A stretch of 34,154 nt of DNA from an uncultured Clostridia bacterium. GTDB taxonomy: Bacteria > Bacillota > Clostridia > Oscillospirales > Oscillospiraceae. Position 1 is the stretch's first letter, and every line of letters starts with the position of its first letter. Positions 18,002 to 25,627 of the stretch are shown here, piece after piece. The position numbers were made by a program, and so were the translations under genes. The notes beneath the pieces were generated by a model that was given only the letters and a program-made list of their open reading frames with translations, was not told the DNA's origin and ran no database searches. Where the stretch lies: NCBI GenBank assembly GCA_945873295.1, contig CAMCCS010000007.1:1-34154 (forward strand), in the 5' to 3' direction.

Positions 18002-18272
18002 GCGTGCGCAGGAGAAAACTGCGCTATGCAAATGCGATGATGCGGGAGATTGCGTCTTATGGCGGTAACTTCCGCGGAGTATGTCCGGTCATCGGGCGGC
18101 TGAACGGCTTCTGTCGGCGCTGGTGTATATCGCCAGGCGGGAAGAATGGTCGGCGCATGTCGGCTATTTTTCTTGCCCCGGAGTGATACACGCGGCGGCG
18201 CGGATAGAACCGCTCGACCGTACCCAGCCATCCCAAGCAAACTGAGTACGTTTTTCAAGGAGGAAAACAAAC
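18002..18272 (+). promoter_or_regulatory. Long structured 5' UTR (leader) of the S10 operon
   Basis: About 270 nt between promoter and rpsJ; perfect hairpin GCGCAG-gagaaaa-CTGCGC (18006-18024) near the predicted 5' end; further GC-rich helices such as GCGG-ataGaa-CCGC. Confidence 0.55.
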
Positions 18273-25040: not shown

Positions 25041-25043
25041 AAA

Positions 25044-25203
25044 GGCAAAGCCGGTTTGACCGGTACTGCCAGAACGTTCGGGTGGGCTGTTTAGGCAGCC
25101 CAGGTCGAATTTCAATGTAAAAAAGCGCGGGAAGTCCCGGGAAGATGGGCAGGCTCCCTGCCGCATTCCCCGGATACCCCCGCGACTTAACGGGTATAGC
25201 CCG
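25044..25203 (+). ncRNA. Candidate structured cis-regulatory RNA upstream of rpsH with two S8-binding-core-like hairpins
   Basis: Hairpin A 25044-25070 (GGC AAAG CCGG ... CCGG UACU GCC); hairpin 25084-25101 (GGGCTG/CAGCCC); hairpin B 25126-25184 (CGCGGG AAGU CC... GG AUACC CCCGCG); small hairpin 25191-25203 (CGGG/CCCG). Confidence 0.6.
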
Positions 25204-25228
25204 TAACTTCTATAAGGAGGATAACAAC

Positions 25229-25627
25229 ATGCAAATCACCGATCCCGTAGCGGATATGCTGACCCGAATCCGGAACGCGAACTCCGCCAAGCACGAAACC
25301 GTTGACGTGCCCGCTTCCAACCTGAAGAAGGCCATTGCCCAGATCCTGCTGGATGAGGGCTACATCAAGGCCTACAATGTGGTTGACAACGGCAATCAGG
25401 GCGTGATCCACATCACCCTGAAGTACCTGGGCAAGAAGCAGGCGGCACTGTCCGGCCTGCGCCGGGTGTCCAAGCCCGGTCTGCGGGTTTATGCCGGCGC
25501 CGATGAGCTCCCCCGTGTGCTCAAGGGCCTGGGCATTGCCATCGTATCCACCTCCCAGGGCGTCATGACCGACAAGAAGGCCCGGGAAAAGCACATTGGC
25601 GGCGAAGTCCTGGCTTTCGTTTGGTAA
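25229..25627 (+). CDS. rpsH: 30S ribosomal protein S8
   Basis: [34 protein letters not shown]. Start is ATG 25229 with SD AAGGAGG; the track's 25145 start is an upstream extension. Confidence 0.97.

Follow-up and report, generated by a model that had tools for sequence, protein, structure and literature searches.

Feedback by ribosomal protein S8 (uS8) on spc mRNA is established in Escherichia coli (PMC10931766). The E. coli operator mimics helix 21 of 16S rRNA, lies at the rplE initiation region and runs into the rplE coding region, with its two strands permuted so that U+11 precedes A+80 (PMC4176348). Among the S8 contacts in rRNA, A642 is invariant, is contacted through its base and makes the only conserved base-specific contact; G597 is contacted as well, and the site contains a (597-643)-641 base triple (PMC4176348). 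A passage of PMC10931766 calls the situation in subtilis or other species unknown and describes phylogenetic work as stalled. Beyond S8, other ribosomal protein leaders, some of them rRNA-mimicking (e.g. S4, S15, L1), place a structured RNA ahead of a ribosomal protein gene. Both ribosomal protein leaders acting by rRNA mimicry and S8 control of spc are known kinds of regulation.

The window considered here is a stretch of 34,154 nt from an uncultured Clostridia bacterium of the family Oscillospiraceae. Its spc operon is tight, with gaps of about 0-20 nt, except between rpsZ and rpsH where the gap is 188 nt; an earlier sequence-only reading had rightly singled this out as the only long gap in the operon. 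The predicted fold of the gap has an energy of -87.6 kcal/mol compared with -61.1 in shuffles (z -5.6; equalled by 0 of 200 shuffles) and consists of four hairpins (A, a middle one, B and C) followed by AGGAGG and the rpsH start at 25229. Hairpins A and B are both present where the sequence-only reading had placed them. Hairpin B proved to be conserved. The element has two further conserved parts that had been overlooked, hairpin C and a weak hairpin D that pairs with the Shine-Dalgarno sequence. No sigma-70-like promoter and no + strand terminator were detected when the gap was scanned, and no Rfam 15 family scored above its gathering score at this gap or in nine relatives. The rpsH leader is absent from Rfam 15, and no description of it was found among open-licence papers. 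The features discussed below are as follows.

25041 to 25228, + strand: rpsZ-rpsH intergenic leader region, 188 nt, from the ORF layout and the fold score given above
25044 to 25070, + strand: hairpin A, an S8-like loop with one extra A, probably fortuitous and absent from relatives
About 25076 to 25110, + strand: middle hairpin, from the predicted fold
25124 to 25188, + strand: hairpin B, mimicking the S8 site, with a lower stem, the S8 core, a bulged inner stem and a variable apical stem
25132 to 25136, + strand: 5' strand of the S8 core, A595 A596 G597 U598 C599 (E. coli 16S numbering)
25141 to 25148, + strand: 5' strand of the inner bulged motif, GAAGAUGG, with the 3' strand CGCAUUC at 25162 to 25168
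25173 to 25178, + strand: 3' strand of the S8 core, G639 A640 U641 A642 C643 C644
25190 to 25204, + strand: hairpin C, a short stem that covaries and is closed by invariant A-U and C-G pairs, then AAC
25207 to 25219, + strand: hairpin D (tentative), CUUCU pairing with AGGAG of the Shine-Dalgarno sequence
25215 to 25220, + strand: Shine-Dalgarno sequence AGGAGG of rpsH, from the sequence
25229 to 25627, + strand: rpsH (uS8), presumed ligand and regulated gene, with RVY and STS motifs kept

Judged from sequence and predicted structure, this region is likely to be an S8-binding, rRNA-mimicking autoregulatory leader. A conserved, covarying structure sits 5' of the very gene whose product's rRNA site it mimics, and hairpin B, hairpin C and the Shine-Dalgarno sequence together form one structured leader. 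It lies directly ahead of rpsH in nearly every family genome examined. In some 90 genomes of the family (f1, the Oscillospiraceae, whose named relatives include Faecousia, Oscillibacter, Dysosmobacter, Flavonifractor and Pseudoflavonifractor) the rpsZ-rpsH gap measures about 90-576 nt; members of the class from other orders mostly have fewer than 85 nt here, and the phylum members sampled from other classes have 16-41 nt, apart from a single gap of 84. Comparison of the gaps across the family identified hairpin B, hairpin C and the Shine-Dalgarno sequence as the common parts, a set that does not include hairpin A or the middle hairpin.

The sequence-only reading had proposed a covariation check and a covariance search in related gaps. 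Alignment A1 was made with MAFFT, using no structural knowledge, from 34 genomes comprising the genus and its nearest relatives. Compensatory changes occur in 21 of its 32 pairs, including 16 of the 23 across the two helices of hairpin B; hairpins C and D are its helices 3 and 4. There are 163 double-change cells as opposed to 47 in shuffles (0/500), and the covariation of 0.466 compares with 0.179 for shuffled alignments and at most 0.137 for slid structures. While the stems vary by compensatory substitutions, the core GUC...GAUAC is unchanged in 34/34 genomes of A1, whose members were picked from hairpins containing a GAUAC-like sequence. Alignment A3, with 41 other and more distant family genomes, also covaries (0.459 versus 0.137 shuffled); part of it was chosen by an AGG/ACC pattern, so core invariance there is partly built in. 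The same holds for invariance at G597, A642 and C643 in divergent genomes, which the descriptor used to locate the core presupposes.

A strict descriptor of E. coli geometry matched 13 of 95 loci, some of them spuriously, and missed many family sites because the bulges vary; covariance models were therefore used instead. Model R1, built from A1, matched 94 of 97 family sources with E-values under 0.001, with the window counted twice in the 97 (as itself and as L001). In the window the match spans 25121-25232 (117.7 bits, E 1.3e-31) and is the only one in the window's own genome. In a second collection, which overlaps the first in genomes and in which A1 members match by construction, 78 of 80 loci gave sense-strand matches whose end coincides with the S8 start codon. 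The longer gaps of three family members (L029, L061, L195) contain a recurrent hairpin with a CUUUUGAUAUGGG-type loop upstream of B, and in L087, L089, L094 (and L082) the apical loop of hairpin B holds insertions of about 70-140 nt with the S8 core intact. Inverted repeats of the GAAGAGUGAA type abound in these insertions, which look like a small mobile repeat that entered at a tolerated spot.

Turning to the core itself, E. coli 16S rRNA reads AAGU at 595-598 and AUACU at 640-644, exactly as the earlier reading had numbered them. In hairpin B, A595, A596, G597 and U598 map to 25132, 25133, 25134 and 25135, and A640, U641, A642, C643 and C644 map to 25174, 25175, 25176, 25177 and 25178. The comparison with the family's own rRNA was made with the genes of relatives, of which 20+ 16S genes read AAGUC...GAAACU and one genus member reads AAGUU...AAAACU. 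The leader core across the family is AAGUC...GAUAC(C/U) or AGGUC...GAUACC, in the strand order of the rRNA. The window's 5' core strand, AAGUC, is identical to that of both the E. coli and the family 16S sequences; on the 3' side, E. coli 16S reads GAUACU. The G597-C643 and 598-640 pairs, which close the loop, are invariant in 34/34 genomes of A1, as is A642; in A3, 598-640 covaries, switching from U-A to C-G inside the core. The positions that are decisive according to the S8 literature (A642, G597-C643 and N641) are, on sequence comparison, fixed or vary as in rRNA.

Hairpin B resembles helix 21 in its AAGUC/GAUAC core, its strand order and the stems on both sides of the core. It differs in being mRNA, in its apical stem, in carrying U at 641 where the family's 16S rRNA has A, and in a relaxed 596-644 pair. 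The sequence-only reading had given this pair as A-C and the other essentials of the core as present; in the window's genus the pair is mostly A-C or C-C, as compared with mostly A595-(G596-C644) in the rest of the family. Since 596-644 is not a Watson-Crick pair in the genus, the A595-(A596-U644) triple does not persist in that form, and the non-standard pair is the one weak point of the mimicry. The inner bulged motif GAAGAUGG/CGCAUUC is kept only in the genus and its nearest relatives. Overall, covariation and core identity support the proposal of a helix 21 S8-core mimic ahead of rpsH.

Like the E. coli operator, hairpin B would be an S8-binding site within spc mRNA and mimics 16S helix 21, in the same operon with the same gene content and with feedback by uS8 presumed. 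Unlike the E. coli operator, it is located 5' of rpsH and not at rplE, its strands are not permuted but follow the rRNA order (AAGUC before GAUAC), and the element includes hairpin C, which is conserved, and an inner stem specific to the family. Its origin is probably independent of the E. coli operator. With the S4, S15 and L1 leaders and with RF03136 it shares its place ahead of a ribosomal protein gene and the expectation of feedback by the gene's own product; from all of these it differs in ligand, structure and operon position. The rpsH leader would answer how this family regulates its spc operon. As a candidate S8 operator it is concrete and conserved across a large family of gut bacteria, differs from that of E. 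coli in gene and strand order and, if the reading is true, would mean that mimicry of the S8 rRNA site was invented a second time, probably independently. Its dozens of natural S8-core variants could also serve studies of RNA recognition.

S8 is very probably the ligand of the leader, as its core sequence suggests. When aligned to S8 chains from the PDB, the window's uS8 retains two motifs of its RNA-binding face, RVY and STS. In the proposed mechanism, S8 in excess over 16S rRNA would bind hairpin B with the same face that it uses on rRNA, and bound S8 would repress initiation at rpsH; through tight gene spacing the repression would extend to rplF-rplR-rpsE-rpmD-rplO-secY behind it. In this way S8 probably governs its own production. 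Translational repression is a reasonably probable outcome, and simple blocking of initiation is its likeliest mode: S8 on hairpin B, beside hairpin C and a hairpin D that pairs weakly with the Shine-Dalgarno sequence, could hinder 30S loading by a steric block or by stabilizing local structure. This steric detail is put forward with less confidence than repression itself. Hairpin C recurs in the distant family genomes of A3, where 99% of cells are paired and the third pair varies (AU:20 CG:12 GC:9). The Shine-Dalgarno sequence has an unpaired probability of 0.28 natively versus 0.36 with the linker shuffled, and the native value is the lower one in 74 of 90 loci. When folding was repeated with hairpin B enforced or blocked, accessibility of the Shine-Dalgarno sequence was nearly the same (about 0.25 in the genus in all three states). 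Since its accessibility in folding is unaffected by B, a structural switch is unlikely, and a B-driven Shine-Dalgarno switch was rejected.

The main rival to an initiation block is an effect on mRNA decay, whereby S8 bound to B would act on processing or stability, either by shielding or exposing an RNase site or by retro-regulation of rplN-rpsZ. Hairpin B ends about 40 nt before the rpsH start codon, with hairpin C between it and the Shine-Dalgarno sequence, which it does not overlap and so leaves uncovered. This spacing and the lack of any sign of a switch in folding are in keeping with such an effect, and the E. coli case includes destabilized mRNA of the upstream cistrons (PMC10931766). 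However, conservation of hairpin C and of the linker that pairs with the Shine-Dalgarno sequence, both right beside B, points to initiation, and an action through decay in place of initiation is possible but unlikely.

A more elaborate and rather doubtful idea is that the leader is a two-input device, with S8 on B and a second factor (a protein or the 30S subunit) on the invariant AC...GUAAC base of hairpin C, and that S8-core leaders have arisen more than once in Clostridia (f2, f19 and f35, below). Were this true, the level of rpsH would be set by the balance of S8 and the second factor. The base of hairpin C, including its AAC, equals the S8 core in conservation, and no S8-related role is known for it; in addition, the genus has lost the 596-644 pair. 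From these facts it might be supposed that another protein, or none, reads the leader, which would then stabilize the mRNA or enhance translation, with the likeness to helix 21 a coincidence. This is improbable, given that the core agrees with the S8 site at precisely the important positions, does not vary while its flanks change and is located ahead of the S8 gene.

That hairpins A and B act together as tandem S8 sites, in the cooperative or dose-sensing layout suggested by the sequence-only reading, is highly improbable. Hairpin A folds well (z -4.1) and presents the G-C pair, the bulged UA and the A-U pair of the S8 core, provided that one extra A is allowed. However, when this gap is dinucleotide-shuffled, a descriptor loose enough to accept hairpin A finds at least one match in about 7% of cases, so that two sites sharing one loop do not exceed chance. 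Hairpin A is also absent from every relative inspected, and among 49 family loci only that of the window has an S8-like site upstream of B, where shuffles predict 2.4. Of the two hairpins, B alone is conserved; A occurs in this genome only and is probably fortuitous, and the tandem arrangement was rejected. A coding role, as an upstream ORF or an N-terminal extension of S8 from the AUG at 25145, can be dismissed: the genus conserves the AUGG, and in the window the ORF 25145-25627 shares the rpsH frame, but the frame relative to rpsH varies among 41 loci and 37 of them have a stop before rpsH. As a practical matter, gene callers could be misled by this in-frame AUG within hairpin B and add 28 residues to the N-terminus of S8.

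Beyond the family, no clear S8 core is seen in the long gaps of f12 and some others. Long structured gaps of about 150 to 900 nt occur in L146, L151 and L152 (family f58 of the class) and in L192 and L194 (family f12 of the order); they likewise lack a clear S8 core and may be leaders of another kind. By eye and descriptor, S8-core hairpins in the rRNA order were seen ahead of rpsH in f2 (e.g. L217, AUAGGUUUGGG...CCCAAAUACC) and in f19 (GGAAA...UUUAACC, which makes 598-640 an A-U pair). Another family of the class, f35, has S8-core hairpins before rpsH in three genomes, with the cores GACCAGGUGGU...ACCAAACCGGUC and GAUUAGGUGGU...ACCAAACCAAUC, the latter with a compensated lower stem. In these genomes (L156, L157 and L158) the hairpin precedes rpsH by about 38 nt. 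It has a compensated lower stem and reproduces the S8-core topology exactly, with A595, G596-C644, G597-C643, U598-A640 and an AA bulge. It is a possible independent S8 leader in another Clostridia family, and the f2, f19 and f35 hairpins are regarded as leads. Within the window itself, the S10-Clostridia ribosomal leader RF03136 was found at 18029-18102 (39.5 bits) ahead of the S10 operon; the window thus carries two ribosomal protein leaders, RF03136 and the rpsH leader.
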